A stretch of 64,000 nucleotides of DNA from contig NZ_AP023415.1 of assembly GCF_018326305.1 (NCBI RefSeq), positions 1 to 64,000 of the forward strand. Reading direction: 5' to 3'. A program made the translations under genes and the position numbers. Below, in pieces: positions 19,766 through 30,421 of the stretch (position 1 is the stretch's first letter; every line of letters begins with the position of its first letter). The notes below the pieces were generated by a model. That model saw only the letters and a program-made list of their open reading frames with translations. It ran no database searches and was not told the DNA's origin. Source of the stretch: Vescimonas fastidiosa. GTDB lineage: Bacteria > Bacillota > Clostridia > Oscillospirales > Oscillospiraceae.

Positions 19766-19994
19766 AAGCAGACAGATACGTTTGTGAGATAGCGAGCCAC
19801 GGGGACTGTACGCCACGACCTTTTCAAAAGAAAGCGAGCGACCCACGCAGTGATCCGAGAGCGACTGTTGGAAAAGTCGTTTTGCCACGACCTATCCTCA
19901 CAGAATAATGATACGTCCGCATGGTGCGGTTCTGCCCACAAGAATGGGAATAGTTGAGATACTAATGGAGCTTTCCAAAGCCGTCTGTCTGCTT
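19766..19994 (+). ncRNA. Candidate structured RNA with nested long-range stems
   Basis: Three nested stems lie in the 420-base non-coding gap between the orf8-like gene and the recombinase module. The outer stem pairs AAGCAGACAGA (19766-19776) with TCTGTCTGCTT (19984-19994), 11 perfect pairs. The second pairs GTGAGATAG (19784-19792) with CTATCCTCAC (19892-19901), one bulge. The third pairs ACGACCTTTTC (19815-19825) with GAAAAGTCGT (19871-19880), one bulge. A further hairpin follows near 20,012-20,043. No open frame of note crosses it. Strand is assumed from neighbouring genes; the family is not recognised. Confidence 0.45.
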
Positions 19995-20280: not shown

Positions 20281-21909
20281 ATGATTTATCAAAAAGGTTC
20301 AAACTTATTTAACATGGCTATTTATATCAGATTATCACGAGAGGACGGAGATAAGGAAGAAAGCGATAGTGTAGGAAATCAGAGAAAACTTTTAACAGAA
20401 TATGTGAACAAGCATGATGACTTTATCTTATATGATGTTTATATTGATGACGGTTTTACGGGAACGAATTTTAATAGACCAGACTTTCATAGAATGATTG
20501 CTGACATTGAAGATAACAAGGTAAATTGTGTTGTTGTAAAAGACCTTTCCCGTTTCGGACGAGATTACATTGATACGGGGCGATATTTGGAAAGAATATT
20601 TCCAGAGCTTAATGTTCGTTTTATTTCTGTAACAGATAATATTGATAGTATGAAGCAGGCATACGATATGTTACTTCCTATTAAAAATATATTCAACGAA
20701 CAGTATGCCAGAGATATTTCTAATAAAGTTCAAGCGACTGTAAAATCAAAGCAGAAAGCAGGAGAATTTATCGGAGCTTTTACAAGTTATGGTTATAAAA
20801 AATCTCCTGCAAATAAAAATAAACTTGTGATTGATGAATATGCGTCCGAAGTTGTAAAAAGAGTATTTACTATGTATGCACAAGGAATAGGAAAACAAAG
20901 CATTGCAAAAATACTAAATGCAGAGGGTATCCTTTGTCCGTCGGAATATAAAAAGCTCAACGGCGAAAACTACAAAAATTGCAACCGTTTAGAGAAAACT
21001 TCTTATTGGACGTATTCTACAATTAAAGTGATGTTACAAAATGAGCTTTATATTGGAAACATGGTACAAGGAAAGAAACATCAACGTATGAGAAGCAAAC
21101 AGCGTCCAGTTGAGAAAGAAAACTGGATAAGGGTTGAAAATACACATGAACCGATTATAGACCGTCATCTGTGGGATAAGGTACAAAAATTGCTGACGAA
21201 AAAGCACAGGGATATTGATTTAGAAACAAATAAAAATATCTTTGCAGGTTTTATCAAGTGTGGAGATTGTGGTCGGGCAATGATGAAAAATTTCTGGCGA
21301 CGTGCTGATGGAAGTAAGTCCTATTCATTCTATTGTGGAACTTACAAAAGAAGTGGAAAAGATTATTGTACTCCGCACACGCTCCCATTTCAAGTATTGA
21401 ATGATATTGTGCTGGGGGATTTAAAGCAGATAATCCGCAATGTAGAGAACTTGCAGGAACTTGTAAAATCACAATCTTTCACAGCAACAAAAATCAGAAA
21501 ATCAACAGACATAGAACTGACAAAGTTAAAAGCAGAGCTTGAAAGAGTGAAGAAACTGAAAAAGTCAATTTATGAAGATTACAAAGACGAACTGATTTCT
21601 AAAGAAGAATTTCTTTCTTATCGAGAGGACTATCAACAAAAAGAAACGCTTTACTCCAAACAGATTGAAACGCTGGAAGAAAAGAAAAAGGAAAGTGTAA
21701 CAGAAGATGTTTTTGAAACACCGTGGTTAAAGCGGTTGTTGGAACTGAAAGACATTGAAGAATTAGACAGAGATATTATAGTGGAAATGATAGACCAGAT
21801 AACAGTTTATGAAAACCACAAACTTAAAATCTCATACAACTTCGGAAATGAACTGGAACATTTATTTTCAAGCGTTTACTGTGAGGACTTGGAGAAAAAG
21901 GCTATCTAA
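20281..21909 (+). CDS. Large serine recombinase (TndX-like)
   Basis: This 542-residue recombinase cuts and joins the ICE ends. The N-terminal resolvase domain shows the catalytic serine (YIRLSREDGD), the VKDLSRFGRDY arginine motif and DDGFTGTNF. A recombinase domain follows (YGYKKSPANK, then YIGNMVQGKK), a zinc ribbon (CGDCGRAMM, then YCGTY and YCTPH) and a coiled coil (about residues 400-470). Length and layout match TndX of Tn5397. AGGTGG precedes ATG 20281. It is intact, unlike many transfer genes, so excision may still be possible. TndX-type enzymes need no separate excisionase. Confidence 0.93.
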   Translation: MIYQKGSNLFNMAIYIRLSREDGDKEESDSVGNQRKLLTEYVNKHDDFILYDVYIDDGFTGTNFNRPDFHRMIADIEDNKVNCVVVKDLSRFGRDYIDTGRYLERIFPELNVRFISVTDNIDSMKQAYDMLLPIKNIFNEQYARDISNKVQATVKSKQKAGEFIGAFTSYGYKKSPANKNKLVIDEYASEVVKRVFTMYAQGIGKQSIAKILNAEGILCPSEYKKLNGENYKNCNRLEKTSYWTYSTIKVMLQNELYIGNMVQGKKHQRMRSKQRPVEKENWIRVENTHEPIIDRHLWDKVQKLLTKKHRDIDLETNKNIFAGFIKCGDCGRAMMKNFWRRADGSKSYSFYCGTYKRSGKDYCTPHTLPFQVLNDIVLGDLKQIIRNVENLQELVKSQSFTATKIRKSTDIELTKLKAELERVKKLKKSIYEDYKDELISKEEFLSYREDYQQKETLYSKQIETLEEKKKESVTEDVFETPWLKRLLELKDIEELDRDIIVEMIDQITVYENHKLKISYNFGNELEHLFSSVYCEDLEKKAI

Positions 21910-23417: not shown

Positions 23418-23442
23418 GGGGGACTGCCTGAGGCAGTCCCCC
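23418..23442. terminator. Convergent terminator between the binding protein gene and cysK
   Basis: GGGGGACTGCC (23418-23428) pairs with GGCAGTCCCCC (23432-23442), loop TGA. It lies between two convergent genes and probably serves both. Confidence 0.75.
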
Positions 23443-23464: not shown

Positions 23465-24397
23465 TCAGTCTGCAAACAGGGGAGTGGAGAGATAGCGGTC
23501 GCCGGTGTCAGGCAGCAGGGCCACAATGGTCTTGCCCTTGTTCTCCGGGCGCTTTGCCAGCTGGATGGCGGCCCACACGGCGGCGCCGGAGGAGATGCCC
23601 ACCAGCACGCCCTCCTTCTTGCCGATGAGCTTGCCGGTGGCGAAGGCATCGTCGTTTTCCACGGGGATGATCTCGTCGTAGACCTTGGTATCCAGCACAT
23701 CCGGCACAAAGCCTGCGCCGATGCCCTGAATCTTGTGGCTTCCGGACACACCCTTGCTCAGCACCGGGGAGGCGGCAGGCTCCACAGCCACCACCTTCAC
23801 ATGGGGGTTCCGGCTCTTGAGATACTCGCCTATGCCGGTAACGGTGCCGCCGGTGCCTACGCCGGCCACGAAGATGTCCACCTTGCCGTCGGTGTCCTCC
23901 CAGATCTCAGGGCCGGTGGTGGCCTTGTGAACGGCGGGGTTGGCGGGGTTTACAAACTGGCCGGGGATGAAGCTGTTCGGGATCTCCTTGGCCAACTCGT
24001 CAGCCTTGGCGATGGCACCCTTCATGCCCTTGGCACCCTCGGAGAGCACCAGCTCCGCGCCGTAGGCCTTCATCAGCTGACGGCGCTCCACGCTCATGGT
24101 CTCGGGCATGACGATGATGATGCGATAGCCCCGGGCGGCGGCTACGGAGGCCAGGCCGATACCGGTGTTGCCGGAGGTGGGCTCGATGATGACGGAGCCG
24201 GGCTTCAGCAGCCCCTTCTGCTCGGCATCGTCGATCATGGCCTTGGCGATGCGGTCCTTCACGCTTCCGGCGGGGTTAAAGTATTCCAGCTTGCCCAGAA
24301 CCTTGGCCTCCAGGCCCTGGGCCTTCTCAATATGTACCAGCTCCAGCAGGGGAGTCTTACCGATCAGCTGATCTGCAGATGTGAAAATCTTGCTCAT
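23465..24397 (-). CDS. cysK: Cysteine synthase A (O-acetylserine sulfhydrylase)
   Basis: A 310-residue PLP enzyme that makes cysteine from O-acetylserine and sulfide. The PLP lysine is in NPAGSVKDR, the substrate loop is PTSGNTGI, and the phosphate-binding loop is [10 protein letters not shown]. Length is normal. The start at 24397 is chosen because GGAGG lies 8 bases upstream; an upstream ATG would put the Shine-Dalgarno inside the gene. It is divergent from an Rrf2/IscR-like gene and has a 140-base leader with a Cys-rich upstream ORF, so regulation by cysteine or sulfide supply is likely. Confidence 0.95.
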
Positions 24398-24466
24398 TTT
24401 ATATTCCTCCAAAATTTATTCTCAAAAGTTCCTATGGTTATCTGAATGTGGTGTCTGCGTTCTGGC

Positions 24467-24508
24467 TCACGGACAGCAGCAACATCGAAATTCGGCGGTA
24501 AAGTTCAT
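24467..24508 (-). CDS. Candidate cysteine-sensing leader peptide of cysK
   Basis: A 13-codon frame in the cysK leader encodes MNFTAEFRCCCCP and a TGA stop. Four Cys codons in a row (TGT TGC TGC TGT, 24473-24484) are far beyond chance in so short a frame. It starts about 29 bases after the predicted transcript start; AAGG lies about 14 bases before its ATG, so the ribosome site is weak. Cys-rich leader peptides upstream of sulfur genes are known in mycobacteria. No intrinsic terminator follows, but TTCAAAAT around its start can pair with ATTTTGGA over the cysK ribosome site. Confidence 0.6.
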   Translation of the reverse strand: MNFTAEFRCCCCP

Positions 24509-24519
24509 TTTGAATTACC

Positions 24520-24572
24520 AACCTTTCTTGTAGGTTAATACGGATTATAGACCTGCCGGGGCTGTTTGTCAA
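24520..24572 (-). promoter_or_regulatory. cysK promoter with small dyad
   Basis: On the minus strand TTGACA (24572-24567), a 17-base spacer and TATAAT (24549-24544) form a consensus promoter. A 5-bp inverted repeat AACCT/AGGTT (24520-24536) lies at the predicted start of transcription and could bind the divergent Rrf2-type regulator. The promoter is seen; the regulator link is inferred. Confidence 0.75.
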
Positions 24573-24595
24573 TACCCTTTAAGAAAATAATTTAA

Positions 24596-24624
24596 TTGAT
24601 TTACCCACTTCCCTGGTGTATAAT
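24596..24624 (+). promoter_or_regulatory. Promoter of the Rrf2-family gene
   Basis: TTGATT (24596-24601), 17-base spacer, TATAAT (24619-24624), 29 bases before the start codon. Confidence 0.7.
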
Positions 24625-24652
24625 AGGTAAAAAGAAAAGGGAGGGACAAAGT

Positions 24653-25084
24653 ATGCTGATTTCAACGAAGGGACGCTATGCGCTGCGGGTGATGATCGAC
24701 CTGGCCGAGCATCAGGCAGACGGATTCATCCCCCTAAGGACCATTGCCCAGCGCCAGGGCATTTCGGAGAAATACCTGGAGAGCATCATTAAGCTCCTGG
24801 TGAAGGCAAAGCTTCTCGCCGGACTCCGGGGTAAGGGCGGCGGCTACCGCCTGACCATGGCGCCGGAGCAGTACACCGTGGGCAGCATCCTGCGTCTGAC
24901 GGAGGACTCCATGGCTCCCGTGTCCTGCCTGGAGCCCGGGGCGGAGGTCTGCTCCCGCTCCGGCGAGTGCCGCACGCTGGCCCTTTGGCGGGGGCTGGAT
25001 AAGGTCATAAGTGACTATCTGAATGGTGTCACCCTGGCCGACCTGATGCACACCGATCCGGAGGGATTCGACTATGTGATCTGA
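24653..25084 (+). CDS. Rrf2/IscR-family transcription regulator
   Basis: A 143-residue regulator. The N-terminal winged HTH is typical (STKGRYALRVMIDLAEH, then RQGISEKYLESII and GLRGKGGGYRL). Three cysteines in CLEPGAEVCSRSGEC are placed like the [2Fe-2S] ligands of IscR, so it may sense iron-sulfur status or redox. ATG 24653 follows GGGAGGG. It is divergent from cysK across 250 bases with both promoters in the gap, which suggests a role like CymR/IscR in sulfur or cysteine control. Confidence 0.85.
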   Translation: MLISTKGRYALRVMIDLAEHQADGFIPLRTIAQRQGISEKYLESIIKLLVKAKLLAGLRGKGGGYRLTMAPEQYTVGSILRLTEDSMAPVSCLEPGAEVCSRSGECRTLALWRGLDKVISDYLNGVTLADLMHTDPEGFDYVI

Positions 25085-25214: not shown

Positions 25215-25799
25215 TTATTTGTAGGTTTTGATAATATTCTCCGCTGCCTCCCGCCTGGAAATGCGCAGATCCATAGCCTGCTTTTCAATATACCGGTGCG
25301 CCTCCGCCTCTGTCATATTCAGGCATTCGATCAGGAGCCATTTTGCCCGGTTCACCAGGCGGATCTCCTTGATCTTTTCCTCTACGGTGGCCTGCTTGGC
25401 CTGCATTTGCCGTATCCGCTCCCGGGTGGCGCAGAGGATGCGCAGGTTTTGGGCCACCATTTGCCGGTTGGTGGGCTTGGACAGGGTGATTACCCCGTAG
25501 CGCACCACCTTGGAGTAGATCTCGTTATAGTGGTCGTTTTTCACCAGCAGCAGCACACCGGCGCCGCTGCCGGTGCAAATGTCAATGGCCAAATGCATTC
25601 CGAAATCGTCCGGCAGCGGTGTGTTGATCAGCACAATGTCAAACTCCGTGTCGGCCAGCCATCTGCGGGCCTCTGCCACACTGGACGCCGTTTGCACCGG
25701 CCAATAATCGGTCATGGGGAGCAGCGGCATAATGCTGTCTGTGAACCGTTCCGAGGCGGTAACGATCAAAACACTGTAGGTCCTTTCTTGAAATACCAC
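25215..25799 (-). CDS. ANTAR-domain antitermination regulator with pseudo-receiver
   Basis: A 194-residue protein. Residues ~8-120 are a response-regulator-like domain, but the acidic pocket is lost (LIVTASE) and the usual phospho-Asp position reads Asn (VLINTPLP), so phosphorylation is unlikely. A coiled coil (~120-145) leads to a C-terminal ANTAR RNA-binding domain (AKWLLIECLNMTEAEAHRYI, then AMDLRISRREAAENII). ANTAR proteins bind paired hairpins in leaders and stop terminator formation. It is the last gene of the glutamate synthase/GS operon, and terminators stand in the leaders of this operon and of the divergent type III GS gene, its likely targets. This resembles NitR-type control in clostridia. 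Confidence 0.88.
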   Translation of the reverse strand: MVFQERTYSVLIVTASERFTDSIMPLLPMTDYWPVQTASSVAEARRWLADTEFDIVLINTPLPDDFGMHLAIDICTGSGAGVLLLVKNDHYNEIYSKVVRYGVITLSKPTNRQMVAQNLRILCATRERIRQMQAKQATVEEKIKEIRLVNRAKWLLIECLNMTEAEAHRYIEKQAMDLRISRREAAENIIKTYK

Positions 25800-25835
25800 A
25801 GGCTCCCCTCCTTTCCCCCCGGAGATTCCGGCGAC

Positions 25836-27047
25836 TTACTTCACGCCAAAGGCGCACAGCACCGACTCGGGCAAATGTGCCCGCACAAACGGGCTGGTCT
25901 CGGCAAGGGCAATGGCCTCACCCAGGGAATCCGGCAGCGCTTGCAGCGCCTGCAGGATCTCTGCCGGGGCCGTGTAGAGATTGAAGTCCGAGGCCGGCGG
26001 GAGGGCCAGCTTATGGCTAATGCCGTAGAGCCCGGCGTAAATCAGCAGGGCATAGGCCAGATAGGGATTGGCGGTGGAGTCGGCGGAGCGCAGCTCTGCC
26101 CGGCGCTGCTCGCCCACAGCGGCGGGAATGCGGATCAGCTGGGAGCGGTTTTCATCCGACCAGGTGATGTACCGGGGTGCCTTGTCGCAGCCCAGGCGGC
26201 GATAGGATTCCTCGCTGGGATTTAAAAATAGGGTGATCTCGGCGATCTTATCCAGCAGACCGGCAATAACGGACGGCAGCAGGTCCGCCGTTCCGCCGTC
26301 CCTGGCGGAAATGTTTATGTGCATTCCGCTGCCGTCTCGGTCCGACAAAGGCTTGGGCTGAAAGCTGGCGCACAGGCCGTTTTGAGCGGCCACCGTGCGG
26401 ACCACGGCCCGGAAGGTGATGGCGTTGTCCGCGGCGGTCAGGGGATCGGAGTAGCGGAAGTCGATCTCGTTTTGCCCCGGCCCACTCTCGTGATGAGAGC
26501 TTTCGGGCTGAATACCCATCTGCTCCAGCATCAGGCAAATCTCCCGACGGATATGCTCGCCCTTATCGTCGGGGGCAATGTCCATATAGCTTGCCTGGTC
26601 ATGGGGGAGGGTAGTGGCCTTGCCGTATTCATCCAGCTTGAACAGATAAAACTCCATCTCCGCGCCGAAGGCGAACTCAATGCCCCTTTCGGCGGCCTCG
26701 GAAACGGCTTTTTTCAGGATGCTGCGGGTGTCCCGCTCAAAGGGCCGGCCATCGGGATAAAAAATATCGCAGAACATCCGGACCACCTTGCCATGCTCTG
26801 GCCGCCAGGGGAGCTGGATCAGGGTGGAGGGATCCGGCCGCAGTAGCAGGTCGGACCGCACCTCGCCGCCGAAGCCCTCAATGGCGGAGGCGTCGATGGC
26901 GATCCCGTAGGTGAAGGCCCGGGACAGCTCACCGGGCATAATGGCCACATTGTGCTGCTTCCCGTAGACATTGCAGAAGGCCAGGCGGATAAATTTCACA
27001 TCCTCCTGCTCCACGAACTCCATAATTTCCCTGGGTGTATACTTCAC
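25836..27047 (-). CDS. Glutamine synthetase family protein (type I-like)
   Basis: A 403-residue protein, about 40 shorter than usual GlnA. It keeps the beta-grasp start (RLAFCNVYGKQHNVAIMPGE), the metal/glutamate region EMEFYLFK, SSHHESGPGQNEIDF, a nucleotide region (GSGMHINIS) and the C-terminal NRSQLIRIPAA and RAELRSADSTANPYLA. The usual DGSSIRGF reads DASAIEGF. It lies 18 bases after the glutamate synthase GXGXG subunit and before the ANTAR gene. It may be a true glutamine synthetase or a GS-like ligase; the operon favours ammonia assimilation together with glutamate synthase. Confidence 0.85.
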   Translation of the reverse strand: MKYTPREIMEFVEQEDVKFIRLAFCNVYGKQHNVAIMPGELSRAFTYGIAIDASAIEGFGGEVRSDLLLRPDPSTLIQLPWRPEHGKVVRMFCDIFYPDGRPFERDTRSILKKAVSEAAERGIEFAFGAEMEFYLFKLDEYGKATTLPHDQASYMDIAPDDKGEHIRREICLMLEQMGIQPESSHHESGPGQNEIDFRYSDPLTAADNAITFRAVVRTVAAQNGLCASFQPKPLSDRDGSGMHINISARDGGTADLLPSVIAGLLDKIAEITLFLNPSEESYRRLGCDKAPRYITWSDENRSQLIRIPAAVGEQRRAELRSADSTANPYLAYALLIYAGLYGISHKLALPPASDFNLYTAPAEILQALQALPDSLGEAIALAETSPFVRAHLPESVLCAFGVK

Positions 27048-27065
27048 AAGCCCACCTGCTTTCCT

Positions 27066-27788
27066 TTAGTTTGTAACATAAAGCTGCTTATAGGGGTTGC
27101 TGCTGTTGGGGGTGATCACGGTAAAGGGCTGGCGCAGCAACGCATCACAGTTGCCGCCGAACAGCTGGCAGAATGTATGCAGATAGTCCCGCACCTCGTT
27201 CATATCCTTGCGGGAGGCCGGGCGGGCAATGACCTGCTTAGGCAGCAGGAGCTTTTTGCAGTCCGAGCGGATGTAGAGCTTGCCGCCGTGCATCCCTGTG
27301 CAGGGGAAATTGCTCACGATGGGACGGGGCCCGTCGGTAAGGCCTAAAACGATGATAATGCCGCCGGCCTGGTATTCGCCCAGAAAGCTTCCGGCCTTGC
27401 CGCCGATGACCATGACCGGCAGCTTGTCGCCGTAGGCCTTCATGTGGATCCCGGCCCGGTATCCGGCGTTTCCCTCTACATACAGCTCGCCGCCCCGCAT
27501 GGCATAGCCGGCGGCGTCGCCGATGCTGCCGTGTATAACAATGCGGCCTGCGTTCATGGTGTCGCCCACAGCGTCCTGGGCATTGCCGCGCACCTCGATG
27601 CAGGCGCCGTTGAGATAGGCACCCAGGGCATTGCCGGGTGTCCCCGTTATAGAGAGGCTTCCCTCCTCCAGTCCCGCACCGATAAACCGCTGCCCGTAGC
27701 AGTCGGTCACAGAAGCGTCTCCGGAGCAGTCGCGGATCGCCGCGTTGAGTTGTCGGTAATCCATTCCGGACGCATCAATATAGGTCAT
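27066..27788 (-). CDS. Glutamate synthase GXGXG-domain subunit (GltB C-terminal part)
   Basis: A 240-residue beta-helix protein with repeated Gly-rich turns (GTPGNALGAYLNGACIEVRG, then GSIGDAAGYAMRGGELYVEG). It matches the third domain of the glutamate synthase large subunit, which is a separate protein in archaeal-type and many clostridial enzymes. GGAGGTG precedes the ATG. It lies between the FMN-binding subunit and the GS-like gene, and completes the three-piece synthase. Confidence 0.88.
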   Translation of the reverse strand: MTYIDASGMDYRQLNAAIRDCSGDASVTDCYGQRFIGAGLEEGSLSITGTPGNALGAYLNGACIEVRGNAQDAVGDTMNAGRIVIHGSIGDAAGYAMRGGELYVEGNAGYRAGIHMKAYGDKLPVMVIGGKAGSFLGEYQAGGIIIVLGLTDGPRPIVSNFPCTGMHGGKLYIRSDCKKLLLPKQVIARPASRKDMNEVRDYLHTFCQLFGGNCDALLRQPFTVITPNSSNPYKQLYVTN

Positions 27789-27821
27789 TATAGCACACCT
27801 CCGTATAGCTTGTACATAGAA

Positions 27822-29327
27822 TTATTCGCCTGCATGGGAAATCCCCAAGATCTCCAGCTCCTTGTCGGTCATGCCGACGCCCCGGAGCATCAGGCGGTTC
27901 CCCTTCAGGGCCTCAATGGAGTTGATGCCCATGCCGCCCATCATCTCCTTGATCTCGTGCTTCCAGGCGGTCAGCAGGTTTACCAGTCTGTTTTTCCCCT
28001 CTTCGATGTCCAGCCGACTCACCAGCTCCGGGTTCTGGGTGGCAATGCCCCAGTTGCACCGGCCCGTCTGGCAGGAGCGGCACAGGTGGCAGCCCAGGGC
28101 CAGCAGAGCGGCTGTGCCGATGTAGCAGGCGTCCGCCCCCAGGGCAATGGCCTTGACCACATCGGCGGAGGAGCGGATGCTGCCGCTGGCGATGAGGGAG
28201 ATGTGATTTCGAATTCCCTCGTCCCGCAGACGCTGGTCCACCGCAGCCAGAGCCAGCTCAATGGGAATGCCCACGGTGTCTCGGATACGGGTGGGAGCGG
28301 CGCCGGTGCCGCCCCGGAAGCCGTCGATGGCAATGATGTCCGCGCCGCTGCGGGCGATCCCGCTGGCAATAGCGGCGATGTTATGCACCGCGGCTACCTT
28401 TACAATAATAGGCTTTTTGTATTCCGTTGCCTCCTTCAGAGAGTAGACAAGCTGGCGCAGATCCTCAATGGAGTAAATATCGTGGTGGGGGGCGGGCGAG
28501 ATGGCGTCGGTCCCCTCGGGCACCATGCGGGTCCGGGACACATCGCCTACGATCTTCGCACCGGGCAGGTGGCCGCCGATGCCCGGCTTTGCCCCCTGGC
28601 CCATCTTGATCTCAACGGCGGCACCGGCCTCCAGATACTGCTTGTGTACGCCGAAGCGGCCGGAGGCCACCTGGACGATGGTGTTGTCCCCGTAGGCGTA
28701 GAAGTCCTCGTGGAGCCCGCCCTCGCCGGTATTATAGCAGATGCCCAGCTCCTGAGCCGCCTGGGCCAGACAGGCGTGGGCGTTGTAGCTGATGGAGCCG
28801 TAGCTCATGGCGGAGAACATCACCGGCATGGACAGCTCGATCTGCGGCGGCAGCGTGCAGATAAGCTGTCCCTTTTCGCCTCGGCGGATGCTGTCGGGCT
28901 TCCGGCCCAGAAAAACTTTCGTTTCCATAGGCTCCCGAAGGGGGTCCACCGGGGGATTGGTCACCTGAGAGGCGTTGATGAGGATCCTGTCCCAATATAC
29001 GGGATAACGCTTGGGATTGCCCATGGACGACAGCAGCACGCCGCCGCTTCCGGCCTGCTTGTAGATTTCTTTGATCGTATCCTCGTCCCAGTTGGCGTTG
29101 TCCCGGAAGGTGCAGTCACTTTTTCGGATCTTCAGGGCATGGGTGGGGCAGAAGCACACGCACCGCTGGCAATTCACGCACTTGCTCTCGTCGGTGGTCA
29201 TGCAGCCCCGGTCTTTGTCAAAGCCGTGTACACCGTTGGCACATTGCTTTTCACACAGACGGCAGTTTATGCACCGAACCGGGTCGCGGACAACCTCAAA
29301 CTGCGGATAAATATAGTCGATACCCAT
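27822..29327 (-). CDS. Glutamate synthase FMN/ferredoxin-domain subunit
   Basis: A 501-residue protein. The N-terminal 85 residues hold two [4Fe-4S] ferredoxin motifs (CINCRLCEKQC and CVNCQRCVCFC). The rest is the FMN-binding glutamate synthase barrel (SAMSYGSISYNAH, GEGGLHED, GQGAKPGIGG, IVKVAAVH, then CHLCRSCQTGRCNWGIAT with Cys ligands of the 3Fe-4S type). It reduces 2-iminoglutarate to glutamate with ferredoxin-like electrons. Its ATG shares a base with the stop of the amidotransferase gene (TAATG), showing coupling. Confidence 0.9.
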   Translation of the reverse strand: MGIDYIYPQFEVVRDPVRCINCRLCEKQCANGVHGFDKDRGCMTTDESKCVNCQRCVCFCPTHALKIRKSDCTFRDNANWDEDTIKEIYKQAGSGGVLLSSMGNPKRYPVYWDRILINASQVTNPPVDPLREPMETKVFLGRKPDSIRRGEKGQLICTLPPQIELSMPVMFSAMSYGSISYNAHACLAQAAQELGICYNTGEGGLHEDFYAYGDNTIVQVASGRFGVHKQYLEAGAAVEIKMGQGAKPGIGGHLPGAKIVGDVSRTRMVPEGTDAISPAPHHDIYSIEDLRQLVYSLKEATEYKKPIIVKVAAVHNIAAIASGIARSGADIIAIDGFRGGTGAAPTRIRDTVGIPIELALAAVDQRLRDEGIRNHISLIASGSIRSSADVVKAIALGADACYIGTAALLALGCHLCRSCQTGRCNWGIATQNPELVSRLDIEEGKNRLVNLLTAWKHEIKEMMGGMGINSIEALKGNRLMLRGVGMTDKELEILGISHAGE

Positions 29328-30421
29328 TAGAATTTCCCCTCCTTTACCCGAACGATCACAGGCTCGCCGCCTGCCGGGGCGTAAATGTTCTCCACATCCG
29401 GCTCAATGACCCGAATGGCGGACTCCTCGCTGGCAATGTAGACCTTGTCGTCCTTTTCACCCACCACCATGCTGCGCAGCTTCAGCCGGTCATTCAGAGC
29501 CATAAGCCCGCCCTCAAAGCCCAGCACGATGGAAAACGGCCCCGTGATAAGCAGACTGGAAAAGACCTTGCGGAGATACCGCAGCTTCTCCTGCTCCTGG
29601 GGCGGCTTCCTGTCGATGGTACTCCAGAAGGGAGCGGCGATGACCGAGGCCAGCTCCTCCAGCGACAGCTTTTGCTTGCGCAGCAGATAATCGGCGATGT
29701 AGGTAATGACCTCCGTATCCGTTTGCAGGGTACACTTGTAGCCGAACATCTCAATGAAGCGGCGGTTGGTGTCGTAGGAGGATATTTCCCCGTTGTGAAC
29801 AATGGAGTAATTCAGCAGAGCGAAGGGATGCGCGCCGCCCCACCAGCCGGGGGTGTTGGTGGGATAGCGGCCATGGGCCGTCCAGCTATAGGCCTGGTAG
29901 TCCTCCAGCCGGTAGAAATAGCCCACATCCTCCGGATAGCCCACCGCCTTGAATACGCCCATATTCTTGCCGCAGGAAAATACATAGGCCCCCTTGATTC
30001 GGGTGTTGATGGCCATTACGGCCCGGGTCACGCACTCCTCCTCATCTATCTGCATGGAGGCCAGGGTGCTGCGCAGGGGTGTGACAAAGAACCGCCAGAT
30101 CAGCGGCTCATTGGTAATGGCCGGCGTTGTGCGAATGGGGATCCGCTCCAGGTGGACGATCTCCATGGTCTCCCGCAAAAAGGCCTCGCAGCTTTTCCGG
30201 GCGGCCCGGTCCTCCAGGAACATATGCAGGGCAAAAAAGTCCTTGTACTCCGGGTAAATGCCGTAGGCCGCAAAGCCGCCGCCCAGTCCGTTGGAGCGGT
30301 CGTGCATGGGGCGCATACTCTCTATGATCTTTTCTCCGGTCATGCGCTTCCCGTCTCTGGATATAACGGCGGAAATGGCGCAGCCGGAAGGGATGCGTAC
30401 CTGGCCTTCCATTTTATTCAT
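29327..30421 (-). CDS. Glutamate synthase glutaminase-domain subunit (class II amidotransferase)
   Basis: A 364-residue protein like the N-terminal glutaminase domain of glutamate synthase. Ntn-type features are HGRYPTNTPGWWGGAHPF, NYSIVHNGEISSYDTNR and QTDTEVITY. A mature N-terminal Cys nucleophile is expected; CAISAV at residues 14-19 would fit after removal of the first 13 residues. The start at 30421 is set by AGGAGC 8 bases upstream; it lies just after a leader terminator. First gene of the operon synthase-synthase-synthase-GS-ANTAR. Confidence 0.88.
   Translation of the reverse strand: MNKMEGQVRIPSGCAISAVISRDGKRMTGEKIIESMRPMHDRSNGLGGGFAAYGIYPEYKDFFALHMFLEDRAARKSCEAFLRETMEIVHLERIPIRTTPAITNEPLIWRFFVTPLRSTLASMQIDEEECVTRAVMAINTRIKGAYVFSCGKNMGVFKAVGYPEDVGYFYRLEDYQAYSWTAHGRYPTNTPGWWGGAHPFALLNYSIVHNGEISSYDTNRRFIEMFGYKCTLQTDTEVITYIADYLLRKQKLSLEELASVIAAPFWSTIDRKPPQEQEKLRYLRKVFSSLLITGPFSIVLGFEGGLMALNDRLKLRSMVVGEKDDKVYIASEESAIRVIEPDVENIYAPAGGEPVIVRVKEGKF

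Follow-up and report, generated by a model that had tools for sequence, protein, structure and literature searches.

The 64,000-nucleotide stretch of Vescimonas fastidiosa DNA analyzed here, referred to as the window, carries on its minus strand a cysK gene (23465..24397) for O-acetylserine sulfhydrylase (cysteine synthase A) of 310 aa, which belongs to TIGR01139 (461.6 bits against a cut-off of 350.95) and PF00291 and whose best named relative is encoded by a MAG filed as Dysosmobacter (93% identity). The gene has its start codon at 24397 and a GGAGG SD at 24406..24410 and is followed by an intrinsic terminator with an 11-bp stem (23418..23442, minus strand). Upstream on the same strand lies a sigma-70 promoter (TTGACA-17-TATAAT, 24544..24572) that matches the consensus at 12 of 12 positions; judged from the -10 element, transcription would start near 24537 and yield a leader of ~140 nt, the length given in the preliminary description of this DNA. 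Divergently oriented on the plus strand is a gene for an Rrf2-family regulator resembling CymR and IscR (24653..25084; TIGR00738 and PF02082). The protein, with a query sequence beginning 6 bases 5' of the ATG, scored 123.3 bits against the Rrf2 superfamily model TIGR00738 (cut-off 73.3) and 98.5 bits against the CymR equivalog NF047409, below its cut-off of 195, and it also stayed below the cut-off of the IscR equivalog. Adjoining this Rrf2-cysK pair, positions 25215-29330 hold genes for an ANTAR-domain response regulator and a glutamine-synthetase-like protein and, judged by eye, for glutamate-synthase-like proteins. Elsewhere in the window, an Rfam pemK RNA motif match (39.8 bits) was found at 19905-19968 (plus strand), upstream of an ORF (20281-21909) that resembles a serine recombinase by eye.

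An operator-like inverted repeat, ATTAACC-TACAAGAAA-GGTTGGTAAT (24514..24539, minus strand), spans ~+1 to +25 of the predicted transcript and is a candidate Rrf2 site, to which the divergent regulator possibly binds. The repeat is recognizable in 14 aligned leaders, the word AACCTA is enriched 5' of cysK genes, and the 20-base core occurs as one exact copy in the V. fastidiosa genome. A second operator-like place (G000:C2:176198-176217, 2 mismatches) is likely due to chance, because the reversed pattern gave 7 matches. Within the repeat (24539-24514) sits an AAAGG SD that serves a leader ORF of 13 codons, MNFTAEFRCCCCP followed by a stop codon (24467..24508, minus strand), beginning ~29 nt past the predicted transcription start. 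The four-Cys ORF reported earlier between the cysK promoter and the gene is thus present as described (minus strand, 24508-24467), with the codons ATG AAC TTT ACC GCC GAA TTT CGA TGT TGC TGC TGT CCG TGA. Its four Cys codons occupy 24484-24473, a core of CGA-TGT-TGC (Arg-Cys-Cys) that proved to be conserved lies at 24479..24487, and the family motif CGATGTYG, described below, covers 24487-24480. The 2.5-Mb genome has 23 sites with four successive TGY codons, of which 8 were inspected; the three other short frames with a start codon among them (L002, L004, and L005) lie beneath longer ORFs.

Leaders of other cysK genes were collected from two sources. The family sample comprised 89 loci, 30 from 150 genomes searched and 59 from further upstream stretches, with one best cysK per genome (paralogues, weaker matches, and some genomes were left out); the named-genome sample consisted of the best 80 of 590 confirmed cysK loci. 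The resulting 169 upstream regions were reduced to 164 non-redundant ones by dropping 5 near-duplicates. Another 13 loci found by motif were added for the frame, masking, hairpin, and duplex tests; they are biased towards the motif, although the patterns used set no frame, and they were absent from the word, next-codon, dicodon, and strand counts and tallied separately in the motif-free operator scan. The sequences are related, so none of the counts below are independent.

A word count made without any information on the ORF found CGATGT in 37 of the 164 leaders (200 nt upstream), compared to 5.1 expected from dinucleotide shuffles. This ranked sixth among all 6-mers 5' of cysK, with only -35 and SD words higher. 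Longer words were further enriched, with CGATGTTG observed 18 times against 0.3 expected and CGATGTCG 13 times against 0.2. The signal was strand-specific: in 32.5 kb of cysK leaders, CGATGTYG occurred 31 times in the sense and never in the antisense direction, compared to 9 sense and 21 antisense occurrences in 199 kb of DNA flanking 80 named loci. Short ORFs starting with ATG and encoding a CC pair were likewise found in 16 leaders in sense and 2 in antisense, and those encoding CCC in 5 and 0, whereas plain Cys content gave a weaker contrast (at least three Cys, 12 sense against 5 antisense; at least four, 6 against 3). Word statistics of this kind can reveal leader ORFs whose shortness puts them beyond the reach of gene finders. 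When promoter and motif were searched for together in 400 family genomes, 42 matches were obtained compared to 2 with the reversed pattern. Inspection of 28 of these loci placed 12 before cysK, 8 before an rnpA-like gene, and 8 at scattered sites; all 12 cysK-preceding loci have an in-frame ORF (in L242 via GTG or TTG). Outside the inspected set were L240 and L244, the former assigned to cysK by script, and 12 matches that added no new locus. By eye, no cysteine gene was recognized downstream of the remaining 16 of the 28, but, as the search required an almost perfect promoter, the motif may also precede other genes. As a class-wide marker, the combination of motif and promoter was discarded (26 matches in 391 genomes compared to 9 for the reversed control). 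A recurrent leader hairpin with CCGATGTTGAGTA was observed before rnpA (rpmH-rnpA region, by eye) in family genomes (L233-L237, L247, L251, and L252).

The reading frame of the motif is conserved. At 45 of 48 CGATGTYG sites (43 leaders), the earliest open upstream ATG is in frame 0, compared to open upstream ATGs in frame 1 at 4 and in frame 2 at 12 sites; the remaining 3 start with GTG (L067, L045, and L202), and 37 of the frame-0 starts carry an SD-like match of at least 4 bases. The distance from that ATG to the motif ranges from 6 to 78 nt and varies in threes. Measured from the operator, the first ATG is in frame with the motif at 18 of 18 sites in 16 leaders, with 2 further operator leaders having no ATG after the operator. 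Codon choice is just as constrained: in the interval -130 to -30, CGATGT occurs in 32 of 164 leaders in sense and 8 in antisense, whereas the 11 remaining Arg-Cys dicodons all stay at background (1-5 sense and 1-8 antisense each). Outside this core the peptides cannot be aligned and share neither an N- nor a C-terminus, as illustrated by MKHNHILRCCRRR, MRSHLPYFRCRRYC, MFLLKERC, MFKRC, MKRC, MIRNLLRCRC, MKSVLYFRC, and MKLELLHFRCRCC; MKRC-stop (L106) is among the shortest leaders carrying the dicodon. A functional micropeptide binding metal or thiol would fit a sequence rich in Cys, but it is scarcely credible for peptides reduced to MKRC-stop, MFKRC-stop, and MFLLKERC-stop whose termini are not conserved and in which codons rather than residues have been kept.

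That CGATGTYG is instead a nucleic-acid site, recognized by a DNA-binding or RNA-binding protein or serving as an sRNA target, has to be weighed against the same data. The nucleotides are kept, synonymous Arg-Cys dicodons are not used, and the codon after TGT is nearly always YGN (32 of 33 sites; the 33 codons comprise 11 for Cys, 13 for Arg, 7 stops, and one each for Trp and Gln), all as expected of such a site. Against it stand the strand specificity, the in-frame ATG, found at 45 of 48 sites and at distances that vary but are divisible by three, and the finding that YG follows CGATGT at 32 of 33 sites within a short ORF but at 0 of 9 sites without one. CCN as third codon in three leaders of the same genus (L348, L350, and L356) makes YG a strong tendency rather than a rule. 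A purely nucleic-acid role appears improbable to us; judged from frame and codon choice, the motif is read as codons, and it may have a mixed role as codons and nucleic-acid site.

Comparison with close relatives identifies what is kept. The closest relative of the window's CysK (L335, 97% identity over residues 1-296) has a leader of equal length, MSFIWRYRCCRCQ followed by stop, in which CGATGTTGCYGCTGTC is retained and N-terminal codons are changed; the frame and the Arg-Cys core thus survive, and the four-Cys run does not. Relatives differ in their Cys patterns (CCRC in L335, FRCRRYC in L011, FRC-stop in L258, and MKRC-stop in L106). Within the genus, L335, L336, L337, and L340 carry the in-frame motif, in L348 and L350 a CCN codon comes after CGA-TGT, and many leaders have none; further peptides from the genus are MDYRCCSGSHA, MTRTLVLLTGRC, and MTKRYEPGFRCRD. 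The in-frame CGATGTYG ORF has a patchy distribution, occurring in 14 of 89 family leaders and in 16 of the 80 named loci (the best 80 of 590). The prediction that Cys codons would be kept in aligned relatives thus held for the frame and for CGA-TGT where a leader is present and failed for the poly-Cys run, which we reject as the conserved signal. On these alignments, the conserved feature is one CGA-TGT (Arg-Cys) dicodon, and a genuine leader ORF, conserved though patchy, is well supported by the sequence comparisons. Mycobacterial polycysteine leader ORFs, described as cysteine-responsive attenuators (Canestrari et al. 2020, Mol Microbiol 114:93, as cited in PMC13236596 and PMC9094748) and reported by a citing paper to act by translation attenuation, share with it the placement of Cys codons in a short ORF before cysteine genes. 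As far as those accounts go, the mycobacterial ORFs are leaderless and polycysteine, whereas that of the window is SD-led, clostridial, and linked to cysK, with one CGA-TGT and extra Cys codons optional. It falls outside the polycysteine-attenuator type, defined by leaderless ORFs with a poly-Cys run, as it is SD-led and its run, found in the window, is not conserved. In its sequence features it resembles amino-acid leader peptides in general, being a short ORF with codons for the pathway product in a leader (whose transcription the promoter implies) and having its frame and codons kept.

The promoter-operator architecture raises the question of whether the ORF matters at all. Cysteine control might reside solely in an Rrf2/CymR-like repressor acting at the inverted repeat, with the leader ORF a bystander and its Cys codons incidental. 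The strong promoter and operator together with the divergent Rrf2 gene speak for this possibility, as do operator-like repeats without a Cys ORF in L012, L013, L016, and L020. We nevertheless consider it unlikely, since enrichment, frame, and dicodon are conserved while the remaining peptide cannot be aligned. Of the leaders picked by the operator and independently of the motif, 11 had a Cys ORF; all 11 encode Cys by TGT, in 9 cases directly after CGA. The same scan returned 16 leaders without an ATG within the next 22 nt (some start later or by GTG) and 5 whose ORF lacks Cys.

The retained codons are ones that may be read slowly. Across 41 long ORFs from the window, CGA accounts for 58 of 905 Arg codons (6%) and TGT for 65 of 195 Cys codons. 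Among all 54 tRNA hits scanned in the V. fastidiosa genome, the tRNA-Arg anticodons are ACG, CCG, TCT, and CCT, tRNA-Arg(TCG) was not found, and tRNA-Cys is represented by a single GCA species. With this tRNA set, decoding rules leave the ACG (inosine) tRNA as the reader of CGA and require a G-U wobble for TGT. In a reporter study of a bacterial his leader, codon pairs with rare Arg codons ranked among the slowest, CGA was slower than CGU and CGC, and NNC codons were mostly faster than NNU (PMC4046918); by analogy, these published speeds fit a leader tuned to be slow. More tentatively, the clostridial cysteine sensor could be a single hard-wired slow pair, CGA being read in the P site only by inosine-adenine wobble and TGT in the A site by G-U wobble. 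A single Cys codon, even in a leader no longer than MKRC-stop, would then suffice for a graded readout of Cys-tRNA, and an entire set of cysK genes in Oscillospiraceae would be controlled like this with no terminator, T-box, or Rho involved. Because these leaders keep just one of the twelve synonymous Arg-Cys codon pairs, they would lend themselves naturally to testing whether ribosome speed depends on codon pairs.

Known regulatory elements were searched for in the leader. The earlier statement that it contains no terminator agrees with our scan, in which 0 terminator-like sites were found in 24380-24660. Rho did not exceed the cut-off in the 97% complete V. fastidiosa genome (best 27.7 bits compared to 509.45), whereas it did so in 8 of 14 control genomes. 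At Rfam gathering scores, neither a T-box nor any other Rfam element was found near the window's cysK, and no T-box was found in 20 motif loci and 20 other cysK loci. The failure to find a terminator and Rho suggests that control is probably exerted at the level of translation. Candidate leader peptides of actinobacterial cys operons have Cys runs near the stop and lack terminators, and Rho has been suggested for them (PMC1262725); Cys codons and the missing terminator are common to both cases, which differ in phylum and genes, with no Rho over the cut-off here. A T-box(Cys) with a TGC specifier and a terminator precedes cysKE in Clostridium perfringens (PMC2940859). Both elements lie before clostridial cysK, and the T-box responds to cysteine supply by reading tRNA directly; none was found here. 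His leader peptides exist in bacilli (PMC2965389). The window leader would share with his/trp leader attenuators the stalling at regulatory codons, which we infer here, but was found to have neither terminator nor antiterminator. Control of clostridial amino-acid genes is usually ascribed to T-boxes, riboswitches, and repressors. Searches of openly available literature, from which most subscription journals are missing, brought up no description of clostridial Cys leader peptides that we recognized as such.

We examined by RNA pairing prediction how a ribosome halted in the ORF could affect cysK. The 36 nt around the Cys codon formed a more stable predicted duplex with the leader's own cysK start region (-13.66 kcal/mol) than with swapped (-11.24 kcal/mol) or shuffled start regions (-11.45 kcal/mol; n = 41), an advantage seen in 0 of 10,000 permutations. 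Masking 30 nt on the Cys codon increased the predicted accessibility of the cysK SD by a mean of 0.111, compared to 0.023 for shuffled leaders (n = 41; 12 control sets, highest 0.061). The mean effect was larger with the mask at offset -5 (0.127) and fell to between 0.00 and 0.06 at offsets of at least 25 nt. Accessibility rose by more than 0.2 in 13 of 43 leaders and fell by that much in none. Within individual leaders, the rank of the Cys position (mean 0.43, with 0 the best) was slightly better than that of other positions, and a duplex test restricted to the SD gave p<0.05 in 6 of 41. Clear hairpins were predicted in L070, L084, L054, L067, L056, L258, and L011. The octamer was rejected as an RNA pairing element in itself, as pairing of the 8-nt core by itself was not specific (p 0.23). 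The preliminary description had also proposed that 8 bp between the start of the ORF and the cysK SD could hide the latter; TTCAAAAT (24514-24507) and ATTTTGGA (24415-24408) are present as placed, and their pairing is unsupported (own leaders -5.49 compared to swapped -5.66 kcal/mol, p 0.71, n = 38). A different candidate anti-SD arm, CCGAATTT (24488..24495, minus strand), is weak, with a possible partner at 24417-24409 and one bulge. The window's leader folds no more stably than its shuffles (z +0.71), and masking its Cys codon raised SD accessibility from 0.30 to 0.47 (duplex p 0.13). In L335 the duplex p was 0.92, the mask changed accessibility from 0.53 to 0.50, and the CCGAATTT pairing has no counterpart. 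Held-out leaders of the same genus gave p<0.05 in 2 of 6 cases (L337 and L350), and in L350 the mask lowers accessibility. SD occlusion is likely in part of the family according to these folding models, with a weak predicted fold in the window.

The reading we favor, and regard as reasonably probable, is that the ORF is a cysteine-responsive leader of cysK in which a stalled ribosome frees the cysK SD. Transcription would begin at the perfect promoter, with the divergent Rrf2 regulator probably acting as its gate, and ribosomes would translate the 13-codon ORF. When Cys-tRNA is short, the ribosome would come to a halt with rare CGA in its P site and TGT in its A site, leaving the cysK ribosome-binding site free for translation; with ample cysteine it would run off, and the leader RNA could fold over the cysK SD. 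Cysteine sensing by the leader is likely on this evidence; that the ORF is translated, that ribosomes stall in it, that the response runs in this direction, and that the operator is bound are steps that we infer from the sequence. The weak SD-occluding fold in the window means that the last step could differ here. One such route is that the stalled ribosome acts through mRNA decay, by protecting or exposing the message, or through queueing or coupling into cysK rather than by unfolding an SD hairpin. Neither the window nor the L335 leader has a convincing SD hairpin, and the short ORFs of L018 and L132 end at or within the cysK start, as such a route would allow; the family-wide pairing signal speaks against it, and we rate it as possible, if on the unlikely side. 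In translational attenuation of the ermC type, stalling of a ribosome uncovers the SD of the gene that follows. The proposed cysK mechanism would differ from that type in its signal, an amino acid rather than a drug, and the SD hairpin of the window is predicted only weakly. A leader ORF of this kind offers a defined handle on cysteine sensing in gut Oscillospiraceae.

A final alternative to translational control by the stalled ribosome is that transcription is attenuated, through Rho or a hidden terminator, in the manner of tna-type leaders. Leader peptides commonly work through transcription attenuation, and the same genus contains a more distant cysK type with a leader ORF, antiterminator-like codons, and a terminator; the window leader, in which no terminator was found and whose 97% complete genome yielded no Rho over the cut-off, makes this explanation very improbable for the gene studied here. 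The distant type, 59-65% identical, is the best or only cysK in several genomes and a second copy in others, and the V. fastidiosa genome lacks it, its other two matches being 27-28% identical. At the distant-type loci (L352, L353, and L355-L361), a short ORF rich in Met and Cys has antiterminator-like 3' codons and is followed by a strong intrinsic terminator. In L358 the ORF encodes MTRFTMAGSMCMDMMCIMPCCCRVRTGHTFSAA, ends with a stop codon, and precedes a strong terminator; by eye, its last codons, CATACGTTTTCTGCC, can pair with the 5' arm of the terminator (duplex -15.8 kcal/mol), the arrangement of a textbook antiterminator. From their sequence, leaders of this type resemble classical transcription attenuators in which Met and Cys codons are intermixed, and unlike the window leader they fit the his/trp attenuator type. 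These leaders suggest that control by leader peptides with Cys codons is in use within this group. Overall, a Cys-rich ORF before a terminator was present in 14 of 196 leaders, 9 of them of the distant type and some of the others apparently accidental (e.g., L118). In L073, a Cys-rich ORF and a terminator-like hairpin lie 5' of the MFLLKERC leader, perhaps forming two tandem control layers. Other cysK genes (L123, L143, and L341) have Cys-rich leader ORFs (e.g., MRKATFSCICCCTVCCDQHPRFVVPM) followed by terminator-like hairpins.
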